Source of the DNA: Candidatus Aminicenantota bacterium
GTDB lineage: Bacteria; Acidobacteriota; Aminicenantia; Aminicenantales; Aminicenantaceae
NCBI GenBank assembly: GCA_021162615.1
Contig: JAGGYH010000086.1
Span: 1-42,479 of the forward strand
DNA length: 42,479 bases
Direction of reading: 5' to 3'
Below the pieces are notes generated by a model. The model was not told where the DNA came from. It did not search any database and saw nothing but the letters and a program-made list of their open reading frames with translations. The translations under genes were made by a program, and so were the position numbers. Shown here piece after piece: positions 1,616 through 41,786 of this stretch; the first letter of the stretch is position 1, and every line of letters starts with the position of its first letter.

Positions 1616-3469
1616 TTACCGGCTCCGCCAAAATCCGCCTCTTTTGGGTCTGGTTTTCGGAATAAAAGACTTTTTCTCCTTTTCAGGTTCGCTCTTTTCC
1701 CCGCCTTCTTTATTTAAATAGACTTTGGACCTTTCTTCGCTTTTGTCTATTCTGAAGGAACGCTCTGCAGCCCACAGCACTTCGTCCCTGAGTCCTTCTT
1801 TAGCGACTTCCTCAGTGAATTGTCTCCTTCCCAGGACCAGCTTGTGGATATACTGCTGGATCTCCTGTTCGGAGTAATATTTTCCGGGGTCCCACTCGTC
1901 AAGGTTTTGGCCTTCAGCCTTGACAATCTGCCGGGTTCCCAGCCTTCCTTTCTCATATGTATTGGTCCCGCGCACATCCCCTCTTTGTATCTGGGCCATA
2001 AGGTTTATGGGGATACGCTTGACTTTACGGACAAGCTTTTTTTTCTTTGTTCCGTTTTCCTCATATGTTTCTATGACCTCTCCCATGCCTCCGGTGTTGT
2101 ACTGCATGCACTTGAGCTTGTCCGGATGATTGCTGGAAAGAGTCATGAGAATCTCATAAAGGCGGTTGACCTTTTTGGCTCTGGACCCGATGATGAATGG
2201 GTCTGTTCCTACGATCCGAACAGTCTCGCCGGCTTTGGCAGGCTGGCTGGCATAGGAATGAGTGCTTTCTCCCCATAAATAAGCAAGAACAGCCTGGGCC
2301 GGAGTGAGTTCCTGGGCAAAGGACATGATGGTGTTCCGCCTGGTGATAAAAGCAAAAATCAGCCCGTCCATCTCTTCGATAGGGGGAAGATTGATAGAGT
2401 CGGAAAAGATGTCGACCATTTTCCCGTCTATTTTTACCTGGAGCTTTTTGCGCTGGATCACGGCTCTTCCGTTGGCGGTCAGGCTTTCGTCTAGAAAGTC
2501 AGGTTCTCCGTTAGCCTTGATCATCACGTTTTCATAAAGGGCTGATTTGTCAATCAAAGCATTGTACATGGCTTCCTGATATTTTTCTTCTACATCGGTT
2601 TTGACAAAAAAGTTATTCTCTGAACCCAGTGCAGAACCGTCTTTTCTCAGAAAGCAGATGTCGTCCTGTGTCACAAGGGTTTTCTCGCCTTTGCTGTGGT
2701 CAAGCCCCAGTTGGTGGCAGGACCATGTGGATTTTCCGGTCGCTGTAAGCCCGAAGAGGAAAACACCGTATTTTTTTAATTTTCCATCCTGACCCACAGC
2801 CGTTACTTTTTTGGTCCCTGCATGAAGCCCCAGCATGCCTTTGGTGTCAGCCGCCCACATGGCCTGGCGTAAAAATCCCTTTTTATCCTCTCCCATATAG
2901 TCGGTTCCCAGTGCCACATTGATATTGTGTTCCGGGATGGCCAAGACCTGCTGTTTTAAGGGATGTTCTTCGGGAATATGGATCATAATGAATTCGGGCC
3001 CTGGTCTTTTTTTGGGGCTGTTTTCCGGTTTGAACATGGTCGTGCCCCACATATATCCTATGCGGTAATTCGTCATATCTGCTTCAGGAACAATGAGATG
3101 GCATATGGGATTGAACACATCGTTTTCGCCCATCCTGCGGCGGATGTGGTAAAAAGGCATGGTTCTGAGAAGATGAAGCACTTTGTCCAGCTCTTCAGGG
3201 GCAGCTGATATGATGTTTTTCTGCTCTTTACTGGGGTTGGGAAGCCTGACCGGTTCTGTGCCTAGGTAAACGGTTTTAGGAGCGATGCGGCTGGATATGG
3301 CTGCGCGCCATCCGTAGGAGCCGTATTTTGTTTTAACGCCTGCGTCTTTAGCCCGTGATCCCAGCCACTTCAGGCTGACTGTTCGGATATTGGGTCCCTG
3401 AAGGACTCTTTTCAGCTCTTCCGCGAATTTTTGATAAGCTTTTAAATCAAATATGTTTTCGTCATTCAT
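1616..3469 (-). CDS. Divergent ATP-type phosphoenolpyruvate carboxykinase-like protein with charged C-terminal tail
   Basis: P-loop GLTATGKSTWS; YMGEDKKGF...LGLHAGTK, VTQDDICF, ALYENVMIKANGEPDFLDESLTANGRAVIQ and MQYNTGGMGE align in order with ATP-PEPCK motifs. Confidence 0.8.
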   Translation of the reverse strand: MNDENIFDLKAYQKFAEELKRVLQGPNIRTVSLKWLGSRAKDAGVKTKYGSYGWRAAISSRIAPKTVYLGTEPVRLPNPSKEQKNIISAAPEELDKVLHLLRTMPFYHIRRRMGENDVFNPICHLIVPEADMTNYRIGYMWGTTMFKPENSPKKRPGPEFIMIHIPEEHPLKQQVLAIPEHNINVALGTDYMGEDKKGFLRQAMWAADTKGMLGLHAGTKKVTAVGQDGKLKKYGVFLFGLTATGKSTWSCHQLGLDHSKGEKTLVTQDDICFLRKDGSALGSENNFFVKTDVEEKYQEAMYNALIDKSALYENVMIKANGEPDFLDESLTANGRAVIQRKKLQVKIDGKMVDIFSDSINLPPIEEMDGLIFAFITRRNTIMSFAQELTPAQAVLAYLWGESTHSYASQPAKAGETVRIVGTDPFIIGSRAKKVNRLYEILMTLSSNHPDKLKCMQYNTGGMGEVIETYEENGTKKKKLVRKVKRIPINLMAQIQRGDVRGTNTYEKGRLGTRQIVKAEGQNLDEWDPGKYYSEQEIQQYIHKLVLGRRQFTEEVAKEGLRDEVLWAAERSFRIDKSEERSKVYLNKEGGEKSEPEKEKKSFIPKTRPKRGGFWRSR

Positions 3470-3492
3470 GTTTGTATCATATGGGTGTATTT

Positions 3493-5841
3493 CTATTCTT
3501 GTTTTTCTTTCATTAAGTCTAATATATGGTCAGGTTTTGCCTGGCCGCTGTTTATAAGGAAGCAGGAAGTGTTTTCCAGTAATCTTTTATAAAAGTCTCT
3601 CTGTGATTCCATCCGGTCCGGTGTTGTCAGGAGAATATGGGGATTATAAAAAGGATTTCTTTTTGCCGGGCCTATTTCCGGGAGGGTCCCCAGGCTTTCT
3701 CCGGATTCCAGCATTCTCAGGGCGTCTTCCGCTTCCAGTTTGACCGAGGGAGGGGATACATTATCTTTCCTGAGGATAAACAACCAGCTGAGGGAGCTTC
3801 GTTTGACATGCTTTTCTGGCCCTTTGATCCAGTAAGGGTCTAAGAGAGCATATGAATTTTTTCCGGCTTCATAACAGAATGGAGAACCTCTATCCAGACG
3901 GCAGTCATCTTTCTCAAGGCAGGCTTTGTTTTGACATTCTTCTTTTTTAAGCACCACATTTTCGCATTTGCTGTTGTCAAAAAACGAGGCGAATTGAGCG
4001 TCATACTTCACCGCACTGGTGGGCATGAACAGTTTTCTTTCCGGAGTATCGGCTATTGGAACACGGCCGGAAAATCTGACAAATACGATCTCGTTTGACT
4101 GGAGGCGCATGGCCGGATTCCGGAGCAGATCGAAGAAAATATTTGTTTTACTGGTTCCTTTGGGTCCTATAAGCACAAAGGAACGGCCATGGAATTCAGC
4201 AGACATGCCCCGGACTGCGTGGACATTGAAAAGCCTCTCTGAAACATCCATGACCAGTCCGAATGCCAGGCTTCGCAGAGGGCCGTAGTTATCTGTATTG
4301 ACAATGATTCCGGTTTTTGTTTCCGAGTTGTAAAAGGCCCGGGGTTCACGTCCCGGGATTTTATCCACTGCATAAATGATACCATGAGGCTCTAAATCTG
4401 ATTCCAGTTGAGCCGGATACCAGTTTTCGACCCAGAAGTCATAAAGATGGGGAACATTTGTCCTCAACTGAACGATAACACCATTGATATTCGCATTCCA
4501 TTCAAAATAGTTATCATAACTGAGATGGGTTTCCATCTCTGTGACCAGGGCTTCCTTCATCTGTATGGAGAGAGATGAGTCAACAGGAGGTTTAGACTGA
4601 TAGCGGGTTATGGAATTGTTAAGGGAAATTCTTTTTATTTTTTTGGCGGGTTTGAGTTCGGAGAGAGCTTTAGAGATCCGGTCCATCCCCTCTTCGAGGT
4701 TTTCCATGGACGTGGCATAGGATATGCGGATATATCCTTCAGCTCCGAAAGCTCCGCCCGGAACGATCGCTACTTGGCTCTCTTTTAAGAGATAATAAGC
4801 CATGCCAAAGGAATTGCGTATCTGGTTGTTTTTGAATTCTTTATCAAAAAACGAGGATACATTTGGGAATAGATAAAAGGCGCCCTTGGATTCGAAACAG
4901 GAGATTCCAGGGATAGACTTTAATCTCATGAGTGTGTAGTTTCTTCGCCTATGAAATTCTGAAGCCATTTTTGAAATGGTGTTTTGAGGCCCTGAAAGAG
5001 CCTCAAGGCTTGCTTTTTGGGAGATAGAACAGGCGTTGGATGTGGTATGGCCCTGGATTCGATTCATAGCGCTTATGATTTCAGCAGGTCCGGCAGCATA
5101 TCCTATTCTCCAGCCTGTCATGGAGTAAGCCTTGGACACACCGTTTATAATGACTGTTTTATTTTTTACTTCTTCACCCAACGACGCAAAGCTGTGGAAT
5201 TCAGCCTCTTCGTACACAAGTTTTTCGTAGATCTCATCAGCGATCACAAAGATATCTTCTTCGAGGATAATATCGGCAAGCGCTTCCAGCTGTATTTTTT
5301 TGTAAACAGCCCCGGTCGGATTGCATGGATTGTTAAGGATGATAGCTTTTGTTTTGGGCGATATGGCTGATTCCAGCTGTTCGGGAGTTATCAAGAAGCC
5401 GTTCTCTTCTTTGGCTTGAATAGTAACAGGCTTTCCATTAGCTAAAGATACTGCGTGAGGATATGTCACCCAGTATGGCGCAGGAATGATGACTTCATCC
5501 CCTTTGTTTATTATGGCTTGGATAAGATGGTAAAGCGAGCTTTTGGCTCCTGAGGAGATAATGATCTGGTTTTTTTCATAATCCAGGCCGTTGTCTTTTT
5601 TCAGTTTCTCTATGACAGCCTGCTTGAGGGAAGGCATGCCGTCTATCTGGGTGTATTTGGTGAAGTTTTCTTCAATCGCTTTAACAGCGGCCTTTTTGAT
5701 ATTTTCAGGTGTGGGAAAGTCCGGCTCTCCCACACTGAGATCGATCACATCCATTCCCTGGGCTTTCATCGCCTTAGCTTTGGCGTTGACCTTAAAAGTT
5801 GGCGATTCGCCGATTTGATTTGCCTTTTCTGATAAAATCAT
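3493..5841 (-). CDS. Fusion protein: class I (Ib) aspartate aminotransferase (about aa 1-400) plus HprK/PEPCK-like P-loop module (about aa 428-782)
   Basis: N-terminal half: VGEPDFPTP, APYWVTYP, NNPCNPTGAVY, and PLP-lysine motif VSKAYSMTGWRIGYAAGP. C-terminal half: NVHAVRGMSAEFHGRSFVLIGPKGTSKTN, resembling the HprK Walker A region. One uninterrupted frame. Confidence 0.85.
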   Translation of the reverse strand: MILSEKANQIGESPTFKVNAKAKAMKAQGMDVIDLSVGEPDFPTPENIKKAAVKAIEENFTKYTQIDGMPSLKQAVIEKLKKDNGLDYEKNQIIISSGAKSSLYHLIQAIINKGDEVIIPAPYWVTYPHAVSLANGKPVTIQAKEENGFLITPEQLESAISPKTKAIILNNPCNPTGAVYKKIQLEALADIILEEDIFVIADEIYEKLVYEEAEFHSFASLGEEVKNKTVIINGVSKAYSMTGWRIGYAAGPAEIISAMNRIQGHTTSNACSISQKASLEALSGPQNTISKMASEFHRRRNYTLMRLKSIPGISCFESKGAFYLFPNVSSFFDKEFKNNQIRNSFGMAYYLLKESQVAIVPGGAFGAEGYIRISYATSMENLEEGMDRISKALSELKPAKKIKRISLNNSITRYQSKPPVDSSLSIQMKEALVTEMETHLSYDNYFEWNANINGVIVQLRTNVPHLYDFWVENWYPAQLESDLEPHGIIYAVDKIPGREPRAFYNSETKTGIIVNTDNYGPLRSLAFGLVMDVSERLFNVHAVRGMSAEFHGRSFVLIGPKGTSKTNIFFDLLRNPAMRLQSNEIVFVRFSGRVPIADTPERKLFMPTSAVKYDAQFASFFDNSKCENVVLKKEECQNKACLEKDDCRLDRGSPFCYEAGKNSYALLDPYWIKGPEKHVKRSSLSWLFILRKDNVSPPSVKLEAEDALRMLESGESLGTLPEIGPAKRNPFYNPHILLTTPDRMESQRDFYKRLLENTSCFLINSGQAKPDHILDLMKEKQE

Positions 5842-5863
5842 CTTCTTAATCTCAAATTAAATA

Positions 5864-7270
5864 TCAGTCTTTTTCTTTTTTTTCAGTGCTGAATTTTTCC
5901 TTAAGGTATTCTTTGAGGTCAACACCTGTTAGGGATTTCACTACGTCCGGCATTTGAGCCAGCACATCCGCGACCTGGGAAGTAATTTTTGTGGCTCCTG
6001 TCCCTTTCTCTCCTCCCACTAAGACGATCTTATCGACCTTTGACAGAGGTTCGGAAACGTTTTTCGCAAGTTCAGGAAGTATCTTCAGATAGTTATCAAG
6101 GAAGGCGGCCTGGTTGTATTTGCTCCAAGCCTGTGCTTTTTTCATCATGGCTTCAGCCTCTGCAGCGCCCTGCGCTTTTATTTTTTCTGCCTCAGCTTTT
6201 CCTTCTAACTTACTGGCTTCGGCTTTTCCCTCTGCTTCTGCTTGAATGCGGTAGCCTTCTGCCTCAGCTTCCGCCTTGATCTGGTATTTTCGGGCATCTG
6301 AAGGTTTTATGACCGTGGCATCGAGCTCCTTCTCTTTTCGCTTGATTTCCATTTCCTCTATTTTTATGGCTTCCTGCTTCTCAATGGCCCTGACTTTGGC
6401 CTCTTCTTTTTTGATTTCCTGGCTCAATCTATGACGTTCCAGTTCGTAAGCATGGTCTGCCTGGGCTTTTTTGCTGTTTACCTCGACTTGAGACTCTGCT
6501 TTTTTAGCCTCATTTTCCCACTGGGCTTTGGCAATGAGTGCTTCAGCGTTTAATCTGGCGACTTCTCCTTCTTTTCTAGCCTGTGATGATTTTATGATCG
6601 CTTCTTTTTCAGTTTCGGCTTCGGCAATAGCCGCATCCCGTTTAGCTGCAGCGATGTGCGGTTTTCCCAGAGCATCCAGATAGCCCTGAGTGTCATTGAT
6701 TTCTTTTAGGGAGAAGGAAAGAAGGATGAGCCCCATATTCGAGAAGTCTTTTTTTACTGATTCAATAACCTTTTCAGCGAATTCATGCCTTCCTCTGTAT
6801 ATGTTTTCCACTGTCATGGAACCTATTACAGCTCTCATCTTTCCGTCTAGTATTGTTTGAGAGACCTCTTTGATTCCTTCTTTGCCGGTTCCAAGGAATT
6901 GTTCTGCGGCAAGGTGGATTGAATCGTCATTAGAGTCAATTTTGACCTGGGCTGATGCTTCTGCCTGAATGAGGATTCCGTTGTGTGTGAGCACTTCCGG
7001 GGTTTTAAGACTGAGGTTGATCACATCCATGGGAAGTTTGTCCACTGTTTCTAACAGAGGCCATACAAATGTCCCGCCTCCTAAGCGGTAGCGGTAACCT
7101 ATTTTTCGTTTTCTACCGTCTGGAAGTGTTAAGGTCTTTTTCAAGCCGCCTGAAATAATCAGGGCTTCATTGGGCCCTACTTTTCTGTACTGCTTAGCGA
7201 TTAAAAAAGACAGGAGAACTATGGCTACAACAATAATCGCGATTATTATTATTGTGGAGAGAGATATCAT
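5864..7270 (-). CDS. Flotillin-like SPFH/band 7 membrane protein
   Basis: N-terminal TM, SPFH region, then a long Ala/Glu/Lys coiled coil with repeated AEAEAEGYRIQAEAEGKAEA. AGGAGG Shine-Dalgarno upstream. Confidence 0.88.
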   Translation of the reverse strand: MISLSTIIIIAIIVVAIVLLSFLIAKQYRKVGPNEALIISGGLKKTLTLPDGRKRKIGYRYRLGGGTFVWPLLETVDKLPMDVINLSLKTPEVLTHNGILIQAEASAQVKIDSNDDSIHLAAEQFLGTGKEGIKEVSQTILDGKMRAVIGSMTVENIYRGRHEFAEKVIESVKKDFSNMGLILLSFSLKEINDTQGYLDALGKPHIAAAKRDAAIAEAETEKEAIIKSSQARKEGEVARLNAEALIAKAQWENEAKKAESQVEVNSKKAQADHAYELERHRLSQEIKKEEAKVRAIEKQEAIKIEEMEIKRKEKELDATVIKPSDARKYQIKAEAEAEGYRIQAEAEGKAEASKLEGKAEAEKIKAQGAAEAEAMMKKAQAWSKYNQAAFLDNYLKILPELAKNVSEPLSKVDKIVLVGGEKGTGATKITSQVADVLAQMPDVVKSLTGVDLKEYLKEKFSTEKKEKD

Positions 7271-7312
7271 CGTAACCTCCTTTTTTCATACCACATAATA
7301 TAGTGAAAAAGT

Positions 7313-7341
7313 ATTATAAAGATTTGTCAGACATTTTTAAA
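7313..7341 (-). promoter_or_regulatory. Candidate promoter for the flotillin-aminotransferase fusion-PEPCK operon
   Basis: On the minus strand TTTAAA-N17-TATAAT, about 36 nt ahead of the ATG, with AGGAGG in between. Confidence 0.4.
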
Positions 7342-11148: not shown

Positions 11149-12015
11149 ATGCGGAAAAAGCTATATATTCTCGGATTAATACTAATGCTGGTATTTGTAT
11201 CTCACAACTGCAAGCAGAAATCAGCCATAAAAGGTGTCGACCTTGATGTGACTTTTTCAGAAGAGACACTAACGGATAACCTGGTTACTGACATGACATT
11301 TCTATGGGCAACGAACAGTGAATTTGAGGGGATGAGAAGGGACTATAACGTATTTGTCCATTTCTGGCATGGGGATAATCTTCTTTTTCAAGCAGATTAT
11401 TTTCCTGAAATCCCGACTTCCAAATGGGAACCTGAAAAAGAATATAAATTCACTCAAAGGATCTATATCCCTGTTTTTATAGATGAATTTGATCCGGACT
11501 TCAAAGGGGAAGAGACCCTGAATCTTTCTGTCGGATTTTATTCTCCTTATGATAAGACGGGAGAATCCGAACAGATGATCCTCAATCGTAAACTAAAAGT
11601 GACGCCGCCTCCGCTGGATGCTCCTCAAGTCATCTATATGGACGGCTGGTATGGGCTTGAAATGAACAGGGACTATCATTTCAAGAATTGGAGATGGACA
11701 GCCAAACAAGCCAAATGTATCATTGATAACCCTCATCGGGATGCCCTGCTTATCATAAGAGGAGAAGTGAACAAAAGTGCGGTCGAGGGACAGAAAGTGA
11801 CATTTATGATCAATGATACCATTCTGGATGAATTTGTCCCTGAACACGCAGTTTTTGAAAAGACATATACTGTTAACAAAGAGAAACTCGGGGAAGATGA
11901 TGATTTTTATTTAACCATAGCTACAGATAAGACCTTCGTTCCTTCCCAGTTATTTCCTGAATCTACAGATGAGCGGGAACTGGGAGTAAAGATCTCTTTT
12001 ATCTATTTCAGATAA
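11149..12015 (+). CDS. Putative lipoprotein of unknown function, beta-rich
   Basis: Signal peptide followed by Cys (VSHNC, atypical lipobox); strong RBS and promoter; no family recognised. Confidence 0.75.
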   Translation: MRKKLYILGLILMLVFVSHNCKQKSAIKGVDLDVTFSEETLTDNLVTDMTFLWATNSEFEGMRRDYNVFVHFWHGDNLLFQADYFPEIPTSKWEPEKEYKFTQRIYIPVFIDEFDPDFKGEETLNLSVGFYSPYDKTGESEQMILNRKLKVTPPPLDAPQVIYMDGWYGLEMNRDYHFKNWRWTAKQAKCIIDNPHRDALLIIRGEVNKSAVEGQKVTFMINDTILDEFVPEHAVFEKTYTVNKEKLGEDDDFYLTIATDKTFVPSQLFPESTDERELGVKISFIYFR

Positions 12016-15775: not shown

Positions 15776-17377
15776 TCAGAAAATCAGATTTTCTCTGTAG
15801 GTCCCGTAGGTTTCTTTGAGTACGGATGTGATTTCTCCGATAGTTGCCATTTCTTTGACACAGTCATATATAAAGGGCATCAGATTCTTATCGGATTGAG
15901 AGGCCTGTTTTAAGGAATTAAGACTTGATTTCAGTCTTTTCTCCGATCTCAGGCGTTTTATTTGTTTGAGCTGTTTTATCTGGTTTTCTTCTATTTCTTT
16001 GGGAGGATGGTAGATTTCAAATGGCGGCCTGCTTTCCTTGGAAACAAACTTATTGATTCCGATTATTTCTTTTTGATGGGTTTCAAGCTGTTTCTGGTAG
16101 GTGTATGCGCTTTCCTGGATTTCCTTTTGAATGAAGCCTTGTTCGATGGCTGTGAGCATACCGCCCATGTCTTCGATTTTTGTGAGATATTTATTGACTT
16201 CTTCTTCAATCCGATCTGTGAGGCTTTCGATAAGGTAAGAACCGCCTAAAGGGTCAACCACATCAGGCACACCGGTTTCATACGCTATGATCTGCTGTGT
16301 TCTGAGGGCAATCCTGACCGATTCTTCAGTGGGAAGCGCCAGGGCTTCGTCTCTTGAATTCGTATGCAGGGATTGGGTTCCGCCCAGAATGGAGGAGAGC
16401 GCTTGAAGGGTGACTCTTATCACATTGTTTTCCGGTTCCTGGGCTGTAAGAGCGGCCCCGCTTGTTTGTGTATGGAATCTGAATTTCCAGGATTTTGGAT
16501 TTTTGGCCTTGAATCGGCCCCTCATTATCTTGGCCCAGAGCCGCCTGGCAGCCCGGAATTTTGCGATTTCTTCAAATAAGTTATTATGAGCGGCCAGGAA
16601 AAAAGAAAGCCGTGGGGCAAATGTATCAGCATCCAGGCCGGAATCAAGAGCTGCCTGGACATAGGTTATGGCATTGGCAAGCGTAAAAGCCAGTTCCTGG
16701 ACGGCTGTGGCTCCCGCTTCTCTTATATGATAGCCGCTTATGCTCATGGTATTCCAGCGGGGCATGTGCTTATGACAAAAACTGATTATATCATTGATGA
16801 TTTTCATGGAGGCACGAGGAGGGAATATATAGGTCCCCCTTGCTATAAATTCTTTAAGGATATCGTTTTGTATGGTTCCGGTGAGCTGTGAGCCGGAGAT
16901 CCCTTTTGATTCAGCCAGAACCAAATATAAAGCCAGAATCACAGCAGCGGTTGAGTTTATGGTCATGGATACAGATACTTTTTGCAGAGGAATTTTTTCA
17001 AAAAGTATTTTCATGTCCTGAAGGGAATCAATGGCAACCCCGACTTTTCCGACTTCTCCGCATGATTGAGGATGGTCTGAATCCAGACCTAACTGAGTGG
17101 GAAGGTCAAAGGCCACGCTCAGCCCGCTCTGGCCTTTTGAAAGAAGGAATCGATACCGTTTGTTTGATTCTCGAGCTGTTCCAAAGCCGGCATATTGCCG
17201 CATTGTCCACAGCTTCCCTCTGTACATATCAGGGTAGACGCCTCTGGTAAAGGGATATTCTCCTGAATTCCCCAGATTCTTTTGGAAATCAGGTGAGTCA
17301 ATATCCTTTTTTGTATAGATGCGTTTCAGCTCAAGGGATGAGGAGGTTGTGTGTTTTTTCTCTCTATCGTCCGCCAT
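15776..17377 (-). CDS. Methylmalonyl-CoA mutase large (catalytic) subunit, no B12-binding domain
   Basis: YPFTRGVYPDMYRGKLWTMRQYAGFGTARESN, GTIQNDILKEFIARGTYIFPP, FHTQTSGAALTAQEPENN, VDPLGGSY. Confidence 0.92.
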   Translation of the reverse strand: MADDREKKHTTSSSLELKRIYTKKDIDSPDFQKNLGNSGEYPFTRGVYPDMYRGKLWTMRQYAGFGTARESNKRYRFLLSKGQSGLSVAFDLPTQLGLDSDHPQSCGEVGKVGVAIDSLQDMKILFEKIPLQKVSVSMTINSTAAVILALYLVLAESKGISGSQLTGTIQNDILKEFIARGTYIFPPRASMKIINDIISFCHKHMPRWNTMSISGYHIREAGATAVQELAFTLANAITYVQAALDSGLDADTFAPRLSFFLAAHNNLFEEIAKFRAARRLWAKIMRGRFKAKNPKSWKFRFHTQTSGAALTAQEPENNVIRVTLQALSSILGGTQSLHTNSRDEALALPTEESVRIALRTQQIIAYETGVPDVVDPLGGSYLIESLTDRIEEEVNKYLTKIEDMGGMLTAIEQGFIQKEIQESAYTYQKQLETHQKEIIGINKFVSKESRPPFEIYHPPKEIEENQIKQLKQIKRLRSEKRLKSSLNSLKQASQSDKNLMPFIYDCVKEMATIGEITSVLKETYGTYRENLIF

Positions 17378-17379
17378 GC

Positions 17380-18675
17380 TCAGAAGATATATTTTGAAAA
17401 AGCGTTTTTGCCTGTATAGGAACCCTTTTGGCCGAGGATCTCTTCGATTTCCATAAGCCTGTTGTATTTAGCGGTCCTTTCTCCCCTGCTTACAGAACCT
17501 GTTTTTATTTGCCCTGTGTTGAGAGCGACACTTAGGTCAGCGATAAATGTATCCGAGGTTTCTCCAGACCTGTGTGATATGACACAGGAATAACCTTTTT
17601 TCTGGGCGTATTTAACCGTATCGATGGTCTCTGTGAGGGTTCCGATCTGGTTCAGCTTGATCAGTATTGAATTCCCTATTCCCTTTTTTATCCCCTGTTT
17701 CAGTATGCTTAGATTTGTCACAAAGATATCGTCGCCCACAAGCTGGATCTTTTTGCTGAACTCGCGGCTCATTTTCTCCCACCCTGGCCAGTCATCTTCT
17801 GCAAATCCATCCTCAATGGATATTATGGGATAGTTTTTTATGATCTCCCTGTAAAAGTCGTTCATTGCCTGGGCATCTTTTATTGAGCCGTCGGATTTTT
17901 TGAACACATAGTGACCGTCTTCATAAAATTCTGAAGCCGCTGCATCTAATGCCATGAAAATATCACTTCCCGGTTGATAACCGGCGCTTTGAATGCTTTC
18001 AAATATCAGTTCCAGGGCCTCTTCATTTGATTTAAGGTTAGGCGCAAAACCTCCTTCGTCCCCCACAGAGGTGCTGTAGCCATTCTTTTTGAGGTTATTT
18101 TTCAGATTGTGAAAGACTTCTGCCGCCATTCTGATCGCCTCTGTAAAATTGGGACAATTGATGGGAGCGATCATGAATTCCTGGATATCCACGTTATTGT
18201 CTGAGTGAGAGCCTCCATTGAGTATGTTTATAAGAGGAACAGGAAGTTGATAGCTTCCTTTCGTTTCCAAATACTCAAAGAGTTCAAGGCCCAGAGCATT
18301 CGCTGATGCAGCCGCAGCAGCCATGGATACAGAAAGTATGGCATTGGCTCCCAGATTTTTCTTAGACGGAGTCCCGTCTATCTCTATGAGCGTCTTATCT
18401 ATTTTTTCCTGTTCTATGCTGTCAAGACCTATGATTTGCGGTGCGATGATTTTTTCCACATTGGCAACTGCTTTTAAAACTCCTTTTTTTAGGTATCTTT
18501 TTGGGTCATTGTCTCTGAGTTCCAGAGCTTCGCGTTTTCCTGTGGAGGCTCCTGAAGGGACAGAAGCTTTTCCTGAAACGCCGGATTCAAGGATCACTTT
18601 TGTGCTGACCGTTGGATTCCCCCTGGAATCCAGAATCTCCCTTGATTTGATTTTCTTTATGGTTGTTTTTGACAT
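17380..18675 (-). CDS. eno: Enolase
   Basis: [59 protein letters not shown]. Confidence 0.97.
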
Positions 18676-37247: not shown

Positions 37248-37718
37248 TTGAAAGTAAGCAATTTAATAACGAACAATATGGTCATTTTGGATTTGGAAAG
37301 CAATAGTCGTGACGAAATCATAAGGGAAATGGTCTCTTTTTTAAAGGCGAGAAAGAAGGAAATAAAAGAGAAAGACCTGTATGAGCGGCTGATACAAAGA
37401 GAGGAACTCGGCAGCACCGCTATTGGTGAGGGATTTGCCATTCCGCACTGTAAAGTTAAATCTGCAAAGGATTTGACTGTGCTTCTTGGGATATCCAGGA
37501 AAGGAGTTGATTTCCATTCTCAGGATAACAAGCCTTCATTCATATTTTTTCTGGTTGTTTCTTCTCCGGATAATCCGAGTGTCAATTTACAAGCTTTGGC
37601 GGCTATCGCCCATCTCATACGTAAGTCAAAAAATCTTATCAAAAAGATACTCAATGCTAAAAACATAAGTGAGGTTTTAACGGTTATCCAGGATGAAGAG
37701 GACCGTATAGATGAGTAA
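37248..37718 (+). CDS. ptsN: PTS IIA (Ntr-type)
   Basis: REELGSTAIGEGFAIPHCKV (active-site His), rpoN-hpf-ptsN context. Confidence 0.9.
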   Translation: MKVSNLITNNMVILDLESNSRDEIIREMVSFLKARKKEIKEKDLYERLIQREELGSTAIGEGFAIPHCKVKSAKDLTVLLGISRKGVDFHSQDNKPSFIFFLVVSSPDNPSVNLQALAAIAHLIRKSKNLIKKILNAKNISEVLTVIQDEEDRIDE

Positions 37719-38316
37719 GTCTGGCAAAAATTTTTCTGTCGAAGAAGAAAATTTGAACCAGAAAGTGGTTTCAGGGGGGCTGCTCCAGATCAATGGGCTC
37801 GGTGTCTTGATCAAGGGGGACAGTGGAATCGGAAAGAGCGAGAGTGCTCTTGAGTTGATATCGAGGGGATGGCGTTTTGTTTCTGACGATGTGACGAATA
37901 TAAAAAAAATATCAGAAGACAAACTCATAGGGACATCACCTTCTTTGAGCCGCTATTTTATGGAGATAAGAGGACTTGGAATTATCAATATCAAACAGAT
38001 TTTCGGATCCAAGGCCATTTGTAAACGCTCAAAGATAGATTTGGTTATAAACTTAAAAAAGTGGGAGCAGAATAAAGAATATGACCGCCTCGGTCTGGAG
38101 TCCCCGGAAAAACACGAACTGTTAGGAGTAAAAATCCCTCAGATTATCATCCCAGTCGCCCCGGGGAGGAATATCTCTACTTTGATAGAAGTAGCCTGTA
38201 AAGTGCAGGTGCTGAAAGAGAAAGGGTACCATGCCCCAAAGGAGATTACCTATAGACTGAAAAGGGACATTGCCTCAAAAGAAGGAAAAAGGAATAAAAA
38301 AATTGACAGATTATAA
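37711..38316 (+). CDS. hprK: Short HPr kinase/phosphorylase (catalytic domain only)
   Basis: GDSGIGKSESALELISRGWRFVSDD and MEIRGLGIINIKQIFG signature, IPVAPGRN. Confidence 0.9.
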   Translation: MSKSGKNFSVEEENLNQKVVSGGLLQINGLGVLIKGDSGIGKSESALELISRGWRFVSDDVTNIKKISEDKLIGTSPSLSRYFMEIRGLGIINIKQIFGSKAICKRSKIDLVINLKKWEQNKEYDRLGLESPEKHELLGVKIPQIIIPVAPGRNISTLIEVACKVQVLKEKGYHAPKEITYRLKRDIASKEGKRNKKIDRL

Positions 38317-39160
38317 TTTTCTGATCATCACAGGACTTTCAGGTTCTGGAAAAACAACAGCCAGCCGTTTTTTTGAGGATTTAGGGTATTATTGTATGGA
38401 TAATATCCCTGCCAAGCTGATTCCTAATTTTGTAGACTTGTGGAAGAAGAAAGAGTTCCAGATAGATAAAGTGGCGTTTGTGATTGATATAAGAGAAGCC
38501 GGATTTGTTACGGAGTTCCCTGAGATTCTGGAAAAAATCCGGAAAAAGCTTTCTCCCTGTGTGATATTCATGGAAGCTTCAGATGAGACTATCATCAAAA
38601 GGTTCAGTGAAAGCAGACGTCCTCATCCTTTGACAGGCCAGGGAACGGTCATTCAGAATATCCAGATGGAAAGAGATAAACTTGCGGAAATAAAAAGTCT
38701 TTCTGACGAAGTCATTGATACGTCGAAGACGAGTATCTCTGATTTAAAAAAATTGATATCTGATAGGTTTTTTAAAAAAAATGAGTACCGGATCCAGATA
38801 ATGCTGGTTAGTTTTGGATATAAATATGGAGTCCCTCTGGATTCTGATCTTGTTTTTGATACAAGATTTTTACCAAATCCTCATTATATAGATCGATTAA
38901 GAGATAAGACGGGTCAGGAAAAAAAAGTATCAGATTATATCTATAATTCTGAAATAACAAAAAAATATATCAATTATCTTTTTGGATTCATTGATTTTCA
39001 GCTTCCTTGTTTTATAGAAGAAGGAAAGAGTTGTCTGACCATTTCCATCGGATGTACAGGAGGAAAACACAGGTCTGTTGCTGTAGCCGAGTGGCTGAAG
39101 GAACATTTGGAATCAAAAAAGTATAGTGTTCAAATCATACATCGTGATATGTTCAGGTAG
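38270..39160 (+). CDS. rapZ: RNase adapter RapZ-like P-loop protein
   Basis: ITGLSGSGKTTASRFFEDLGYYCMDNIP, RFLPNPHYID, SIGCTGGKHRSVAVAEWL. True start may be TTG at 38303. Confidence 0.92.
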   Translation: MPQKKEKGIKKLTDYNFLIITGLSGSGKTTASRFFEDLGYYCMDNIPAKLIPNFVDLWKKKEFQIDKVAFVIDIREAGFVTEFPEILEKIRKKLSPCVIFMEASDETIIKRFSESRRPHPLTGQGTVIQNIQMERDKLAEIKSLSDEVIDTSKTSISDLKKLISDRFFKKNEYRIQIMLVSFGYKYGVPLDSDLVFDTRFLPNPHYIDRLRDKTGQEKKVSDYIYNSEITKKYINYLFGFIDFQLPCFIEEGKSCLTISIGCTGGKHRSVAVAEWLKEHLESKKYSVQIIHRDMFR

Positions 39161-40019: not shown

Positions 40020-41786
40020 ATGGAATATTTTAGGCTAAGAGGAACGGGAGTGTCCCCTGGTATTGCAGTGGGAGAAGTCCTTTTATCCGAAAGGATTGTT
40101 TTTACATCAAGAAAGAACGGCATCAAAAAGGAATATATAGGGAGGGAACTGAAGAGACTTGATGTTTCGATTCATAGAACAGGAAAACAACTCAAGAAGC
40201 TAAAAGAGGAAATAGGGAAAAGAGTCGGGTCTGACCACTCTTTTATTTTCGAAGCGCACCTTTTTATCCTCCAGGACAATTGTCTCATCTCCAGAATAAA
40301 GGAGATTATTAAAGATGAAAGATGCAGAGCTGAAAGAGCTATCTCCAAGGTGTTTGAAGAATATTCCAGAATGTTCAAGTCCATTGAAGACGAATATTTT
40401 AAGCAGCGTGAATATGACCTTAAAGATGTTCTGTCTAAAATCTACTTAAATCTTAAGTCAGATAAAAAGTTAAAGGAGGATGACGGAAAAGAGAAAATAC
40501 TAGTAGCCCATGACCTGCTTCCCTCGGAGGCAGCTTCGAGATTGAGTAAGGGGAATGTTCTTGCTGTGGCCCTTGATATCGGCGGCACTACTTCTCATAC
40601 CGCTATTCTGGCGCGTTCGTTAAACATTCCGGCTGTAATGGGATTAAGCCAGGTCACCCGGAAAGTCAAAGACGGGGATACACTTATAGTGGATGGAACA
40701 AACGGTGAAGTGCTCATCAATCCTCCCCTTGCTATAAGACGAGAGTTTGGCAGCAAACAAAAAAAATACGACAGCTATGTGAGAGAACTTAAGAAGACAG
40801 CAAAACTGGAATCCAGGACTCTGGACAGAGTCAGATTCTTTCCTTTTGCCAATATTGAACTTCCGGAAGAAGCTGACCTTGCTTTTTCGATGGGGGCGGA
40901 AGGAGTGGGGCTGTTCAGAACAGAGTTTATTTTTTTCCAGAGAAAGGATTTGCCCTCTGAGCAGGAGCATTACAAAATCTATTCCCAGGTTGCGAAGAAT
41001 GCCGGCAAGAAGCCTGTCTACATAAGGACGGTTGATATCGGAGGAGAGAAGAATTTTCCTCAATTGAGCATTGAGAAAGAGCCAAATCCCGCATTGGGAC
41101 TCAGGGGTTTCCGGTTGTCCTTAAGGGAAAGAAAGCATTTTAAGATACAGTTAAGGGCTATATTACGGGCGAGCGCTCTATATAAAAATGTCCGCATCAT
41201 GCTGCCCATGATTACGGGCATTGAGGAGATCGAGGAAGCAAAGCTGATTATCGGAGAGATAAAAGAAGAACTGAAAGATCAGAAGTTCAAATATGATGAA
41301 AATATACCCTTGGGTATAATGATTGAAGTCCCAGCAGCAGCTGCTGTCTCCGACAGTCTGGTCAAAGAAGTCGATTACATCAGTATAGGAACCAATGACC
41401 TTATTCAGTATTATCTTGCCGTTGACAGGTCAAATGAGCTGGTCTCCTATTTATTTAAACCGCTGCATCCTTCTGTTTTGAGGCTTTTGAAATTTATTAT
41501 TGACAGCGCAAATAAAGAGAAAAAAGAAGTGACTGTATGCGGTGAAATGGCTGCAGATCCACTATCAGCATTGGCATTATTAGGGCTTGGGATGAAAAGG
41601 TTCAGTATGAATCCTATCTTTATCCCAAAAATAAAAAAGACTCTGAGGTCAGTTGAATACAAAAGTGTGCAAATGATTGTTGAGAAAGCTCTGGCTCTTA
41701 AAACAGCGCGGGAGGTTGAGGAGCATTTCTTAGAAAGTGTTTTATCCAAACACCCGGAGGCTCTTCTTGCGACCGAGGCATCCTAA
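40020..41786 (+). CDS. ptsI: PTS enzyme I
   Basis: DIGGTTSHTAILARSLNIPAVMGL, GAEGVGLFRTEFIFF, GIMIEVPAAA, VCGEMAADP. Confidence 0.96.
   Translation: MEYFRLRGTGVSPGIAVGEVLLSERIVFTSRKNGIKKEYIGRELKRLDVSIHRTGKQLKKLKEEIGKRVGSDHSFIFEAHLFILQDNCLISRIKEIIKDERCRAERAISKVFEEYSRMFKSIEDEYFKQREYDLKDVLSKIYLNLKSDKKLKEDDGKEKILVAHDLLPSEAASRLSKGNVLAVALDIGGTTSHTAILARSLNIPAVMGLSQVTRKVKDGDTLIVDGTNGEVLINPPLAIRREFGSKQKKYDSYVRELKKTAKLESRTLDRVRFFPFANIELPEEADLAFSMGAEGVGLFRTEFIFFQRKDLPSEQEHYKIYSQVAKNAGKKPVYIRTVDIGGEKNFPQLSIEKEPNPALGLRGFRLSLRERKHFKIQLRAILRASALYKNVRIMLPMITGIEEIEEAKLIIGEIKEELKDQKFKYDENIPLGIMIEVPAAAAVSDSLVKEVDYISIGTNDLIQYYLAVDRSNELVSYLFKPLHPSVLRLLKFIIDSANKEKKEVTVCGEMAADPLSALALLGLGMKRFSMNPIFIPKIKKTLRSVEYKSVQMIVEKALALKTAREVEEHFLESVLSKHPEALLATEAS

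Follow-up and report, generated by a model that had tools for sequence, protein, structure and literature searches.

A stretch of 42,479 nucleotides from Candidatus Aminicenantota bacterium (assembly GCA_021162615.1, contig JAGGYH010000086.1, positions 1 to 42,479), referred to here at its full length as the window, was analysed. Three adjacent genes of this window encode a flotillin, an aminotransferase fused to a PEPCK-fold domain, and a divergent ATP-dependent PEPCK. The features of the locus are as follows.

7271-7341, minus strand: AGGAGG and promoter-like site upstream of the flotillin (consensus match only)
5864-7270, minus strand: flotillin ORF, 468 aa, with N-terminal hydrophobic segment, SPFH/Band_7 domain, coiled-coil and Flot domain
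3493-5841, minus strand: fusion ORF, 782 aa, aminotransferase plus PEPCK-fold domain
4657-5841, minus strand: N-terminal part of the fusion (residues ~1-395), putative class I aspartate aminotransferase with conserved PLP and substrate residues
3493-4641, minus strand: C-terminal part of the fusion (residues ~401-782), putative pseudo-PEPCK with residual P-loop GPKGTSKT and four-Cys motif at residues 636-656
1616-3469, minus strand: divergent ATP-PEPCK, 617 aa, catalytic residues conserved
1619-1735, minus strand: C-terminal tail of the PEPCK (residues 579-617), predicted disordered, pLDDT < 50

The initial annotation described three closely spaced minus-strand genes behind a strong ribosome binding site and one candidate promoter. 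The ORFs were confirmed, with gaps of 22 nt between flotillin and fusion (5842-5863) and 23 nt between fusion and PEPCK (3470-3492), and AGGAGG was found 5 nt upstream of the flotillin ATG. The proposed promoter at 7313-7341 exists as a site (TATAAT, 10 of 12 consensus matches); however, the region held 13 promoter-like sites against 10.1 +/- 2.9 in shuffled sequence, which is no enrichment, and the site was therefore treated as weak evidence. Elsewhere in the window, a PTS-type cluster (37248-39160) comprises EIIA (37248-37718), a genuine HprK (37711-38316) separate from the fusion, and RapZ (38270-39160), and an ORF at 40020-41786 resembles PTS enzyme I by sequence. The large subunit of methylmalonyl-CoA mutase (15776-17377, minus strand) lies directly 3' of an enolase-like ORF (17380-18675), and a 288-aa ORF on the plus strand (11149-12015) has a lipoprotein-like start and no Pfam match.

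The neighbourhood survey of the fusion that had been proposed for this locus was carried out. A sample of 199 genomes from the phylum of the window contained the C-terminal half of the fusion in 23 cases, each time within an ORF of about 780 aa. A species-level genome collection yielded 163 stretches with this half, from which 80 loci were retained. The loci were labelled Aminicenantes, Fischerbacteria, Ignavibacteria, Calditrichota, Bacteroidetes, Gemmatimonadota, Latescibacterota, Zixibacteria and TA06. Flotillin, fusion and divergent PEPCK, hereafter the trio, co-occur in Aminicenantes, other Acidobacteriota-type lineages, Ignavibacteria, Calditrichota and Bacteroidota-labelled MAGs, as well as in Fischerbacteria, Gemmatimonadota, Latescibacterota and TA06. 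Three further titles were Clostridiales (L081), Thermoplasmatota (L104) and Caldisericaceae (L133); the tree placed L081 among Aminicenantes and L133 among Calditrichota, and did not place L104. The labels or binning of these MAGs therefore look wrong.

Of 72 readable loci, 71 have the flotillin gene immediately 5' of the fusion: a script identified 69, and L064 and L095 share this layout although their flotillin frame is broken; L128 is the one exception. The PEPCK gene followed the fusion in 39 of the 72 loci readable downstream, and was divergently oriented and adjoining the flotillin in L108, L119, L122 and families f11/f64. Median gaps were 25 nt between flotillin and fusion and about 25 nt between fusion and PEPCK, and the fusion was unbroken (757-809 aa) in every full-length copy. 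Clustering of the ORFs from 35 diverse loci revealed wide recurrence of the trio families only (32, 27 and 19 loci); the next-commonest families reached 6 loci and were lineage-specific or antisense. Distances of the trio proteins were strongly correlated (Mantel r 0.94-0.95, 34 sets), as co-inheritance predicts. The clustering of the trio, in the same order across several phyla, is far beyond chance. A curiosity of one genome was thus ruled out by the recurrence of fusion and neighbourhood in other genomes, and the claimed flotillin, aspartate aminotransferase and PEPCK module proved to be a conserved three-gene neighbourhood kept well beyond the window genome. A neighbourhood confined to this genome, or a flotillin with unrelated partners, was looked for across the relatives and was not found. 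A longer operon including UDP-sugar epimerase, RNase PH and LpxL/LpxK was rejected, these neighbours being conserved within Aminicenantes only.

Most work on bacterial flotillins treats them as general organisers of the membrane whose clients are many and loosely defined, and FloT and FloA are usually described together with NfeD. The window flotillin scored 97.8 bits for Band_7/SPFH (cut-off 23.6) and 34.8 bits for Flot (cut-off 27). It resembles FloT/FloA in these domains and in its N-terminal membrane segment, but differs in its partner, which is the fusion instead of NfeD, and in its score of 390.5 bits, below the 700-bit cut-off of the FloT equivalog NF058507. A flotillin-NfeD pairing was excluded, as the only NfeD match of the genome lies on a different contig. 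No second Flot-domain gene was detected in the window genome, and the trio flotillin was the sole Flot-domain gene in 39 of 41 genomes, the exceptions being G207 with two and G238 with none. The system most similar in kind is the flotillin-associated rhodopsin (FArhodopsin) cluster (PMC10308929), in which a flotillin keeps a close and lasting linkage to a single functional gene; most of the genomes concerned have no other flotillin. The FArhodopsin partner is a membrane rhodopsin, whereas the partners in the trio are unrelated soluble central-carbon enzymes.

Pfam analysis of the fusion identified Aminotran_1_2 over residues 31-389 only. Among 95 fusions, the Schiff-base Lys, the PLP-binding Asp and Tyr and both Arg residues, the alpha-carboxylate Arg included, were invariant, and the Lys contacting the substrate side chain was found in 94. 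Among solved structures, the best relatives are aspartate and aspartate/prephenate aminotransferases. These data point to a class I aspartate aminotransferase with its catalytic site retained, and with aspartate as the presumed substrate. The site is shared with I-beta type class I aspartate aminotransferases, from which the fusion differs in that the PEPCK-fold domain is always attached in the full-length copies seen. The next-best aminotransferase homologues of the window genome are only 26-34% identical and belong to other or unassigned subfamilies, so the fusion may be its main aspartate aminotransferase.

The C-terminal half of the window fusion gave no Pfam match, Hpr_kinase_C over its cut-off included, and hmmsearch returned weak matches of the fused domain to both HprK and PEPCK. 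Profile alignment (hhalign) related the domain to the partner PEPCK with an E value of 2.3e-5, and an AlphaFold2 model generated from 23 homologues (pLDDT 88.6) matched the complete ATP-PEPCK structures 1oen and 1j3b (TM 0.70-0.71, E ~1e-17). The positions of the PEPCK Lys pair, metal-binding His, K288 and R333 were mostly replaced in the 95 fusions. The domain is therefore read as a pseudo-PEPCK, having a full-length PEPCK fold from which the catalytic residues have mostly gone. It had initially been annotated as HprK-like. It does share the P-loop superfamily and a weak profile similarity with HPr kinase/phosphorylase, but it matches the whole PEPCK fold (TM 0.70) and lacks the conserved metal and catalytic residues, and an HprK-type kinase was ruled out as its main reading. 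The strong conservation of the domain at non-catalytic residues suggests a kept function rather than decay. Cys residues at positions 636, 641, 647 and 656 were present in 94, 87, 95 and 90 of the 95 fusions, and the CX4CX5CX8C motif that they form, nearly invariant and gone in some lineages, is a possible Zn or Fe-S site.

A role as a regulatory kinase, with the fused domain phosphorylating flotillin, PEPCK or a PTS-like protein on an aspartate or oxaloacetate cue, was also considered. The P-loop Lys is kept in 82 of the 95 fusions and is R in the other 13, the acidic kinase-2 residue is D or E in all of them, and 9 of 23 relatives give weak Hpr_kinase_C matches, the best with an E value of 4e-4. 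These features are consistent with a kinase, and the domain may still bind nucleotide. However, the metal His and K288 are lost in most members, the glycine preceding the P-loop Lys is usually replaced, the fold follows PEPCK and not HprK over its whole length, and no conserved substrate protein adjoins the fusion. We regard such a kinase as improbable.

The separately encoded PEPCK scored 87.6 bits for PEPCK_ATP (PF01293, cut-off 26.5), and its model has a full-length PEPCK fold. Equivalents of E. coli Y207, K212, K213, H232, K254, D268, D269, K288 and R333 were present in 55 of 55 sequences, and an Arg motif fits R65, this equivalence being probable with the alignment off by one. The protein keeps the fold and catalytic residues of ATP-PEPCK, but differs from the nearest NCBIfam family, NF006821 (PRK09344.1-3), in its P-loop, GLTATGKST, and in a C-terminal tail of about 50 aa, and it is at best 35-40% identical to NF006821-type relatives outside the operon. 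Such a tailless NF006821-type PEPCK, about 40% identical, is carried by three genomes of the same class that have no fusion (G004, G020 and G047; loci L045-L047), and is a likely ancestral type of the operon enzyme. A related kinase or decarboxylase in place of PEPCK would agree with scores of about 280-292 bits (283.6 for the window, 281-292 for other operon members), below the 369-bit cut-off of NF006821, the nearest curated family, and with replacement of Gly251 by Ala in the P-loop of all 55 sequences. The conservation of every catalytic residue checked, the fit to R65, the full-length fold and the distribution of PEPCK types described below make this reading very unlikely.

The window genome has no PEPCK other than that of the trio. 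This enzyme was present in 23 of 41 fusion-bearing genomes, none of which had a GTP-PEPCK, whereas 16 of the 18 lacking the trio PEPCK carried a GTP-PEPCK. Four of the 23 (G200, G213, G215 and G220) have, in addition, an ordinary full-length ATP-PEPCK, which could reflect either true redundancy or contamination. On the fusion tree the change from trio PEPCK to GTP-PEPCK is a single event confined to one clade; as there is no phylogenetic replication, it is read as one consistent replacement and not as a statistical association. The mutual exclusion of the two types and the conserved catalytic residues indicate that the separately encoded protein probably works as a genuine PEPCK in metabolism, and the possibly regulatory role suggested earlier for both PEPCK/HprK-like partners was set aside for this protein.

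The window PEPCK ends in a conserved basic-aromatic motif, RPKRGGFWRSR. A tail was found on 53 of 53 PEPCKs from fusion-bearing genomes and on none of 8 from genomes in which no fusion was detected, some genomes entering these counts twice through two collections and 5 of the 8 tailless proteins being more distant PEPCKs. In 45 sequences the tail takes the form RPRR..FWRxR or RPRRPGxWRWR, and in 8 it is PLSP-type; two unrelated forms suggest that the tail may bind the membrane or something else. Within family f37, G081 has the flotillin, the fusion and the tail, its PEPCK lying on a separate contig, and G070 and G091 (same genus) together with G045 have a tailless PEPCK and neither flotillin nor fusion. 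This contrast is limited to four MAGs, 88-97% complete, in which co-loss happened once or twice, and no tail remnants were seen 3' of the PEPCK stop in G045, G070 and G091. A docking tail transferred to the GTP-PEPCK of the swap clade was looked for and not found.

Taken together, we propose, with a probability of roughly 0.55, that the trio forms a membrane-anchored aspartate-oxaloacetate-PEP module in which the pseudo-PEPCK domain and the tail hold or regulate the live PEPCK. The aminotransferase half would interconvert aspartate and oxaloacetate, and the divergent ATP-PEPCK, as the working PEPCK of the cell, would interconvert oxaloacetate and PEP. The fused domain, predicted to be incapable of PEPCK chemistry, would act as an adaptor that brings the two enzymes together and/or as a nucleotide- or metal-responsive regulator. 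The disordered tail of PEPCK would serve as the docking element, its partner being conjectural, and flotillin would tether the complex to the membrane; any channelling and the direction of flux are predictions of the same kind. The swap clade retains flotillin and fusion alongside a tailless GTP-PEPCK, which implies that this pair has a use without a docked PEPCK and forms the core of the system, and that PEPCK docking, if real, is dispensable.

Survival of the fusion and flotillin after loss of the trio PEPCK in that clade would also fit a co-expressed metabolic operon without a complex, in which aminotransferase and PEPCK serve aspartate or gluconeogenic metabolism, flotillin does general membrane work and the pseudo-PEPCK controls only its fused aminotransferase. 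This is the less probable explanation, as the most constant neighbour of the fusion is flotillin, usually the only one of the genome, and not PEPCK; moreover, the PEPCK tail tracks fusion and flotillin, and linkage is kept after rearrangement in the divergent layout. A stronger form of the membrane-anchored module, in which a dedicated flotillin builds a metabolon in several phyla and the aminotransferase-fused pseudo-PEPCK uses the tail of the live PEPCK to recruit and control that enzyme, is put forward only tentatively, as somewhat less likely than its negation.

The initial annotation knew of no described system with this combination, and likewise no description was found in open-access full text. 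Searched by term, a review of the PEP-pyruvate-oxaloacetate node (PMC8100219) contained no mention of fusions or flotillin. In several phyla, gene order couples a usually single flotillin to two specific enzymes that form a reaction pair, so that a client is predicted that can be tested. The fused domain would represent a pseudo-enzyme derived from PEPCK. If the metabolon reading is true, it would be a first PEPCK pseudo-enzyme, and the flotillin a first scaffold of its kind reserved for a pair of central-carbon reactions. The trio also marks a divergent ATP-PEPCK family that is probably responsible for the PEP/oxaloacetate step in mostly uncultured lineages.
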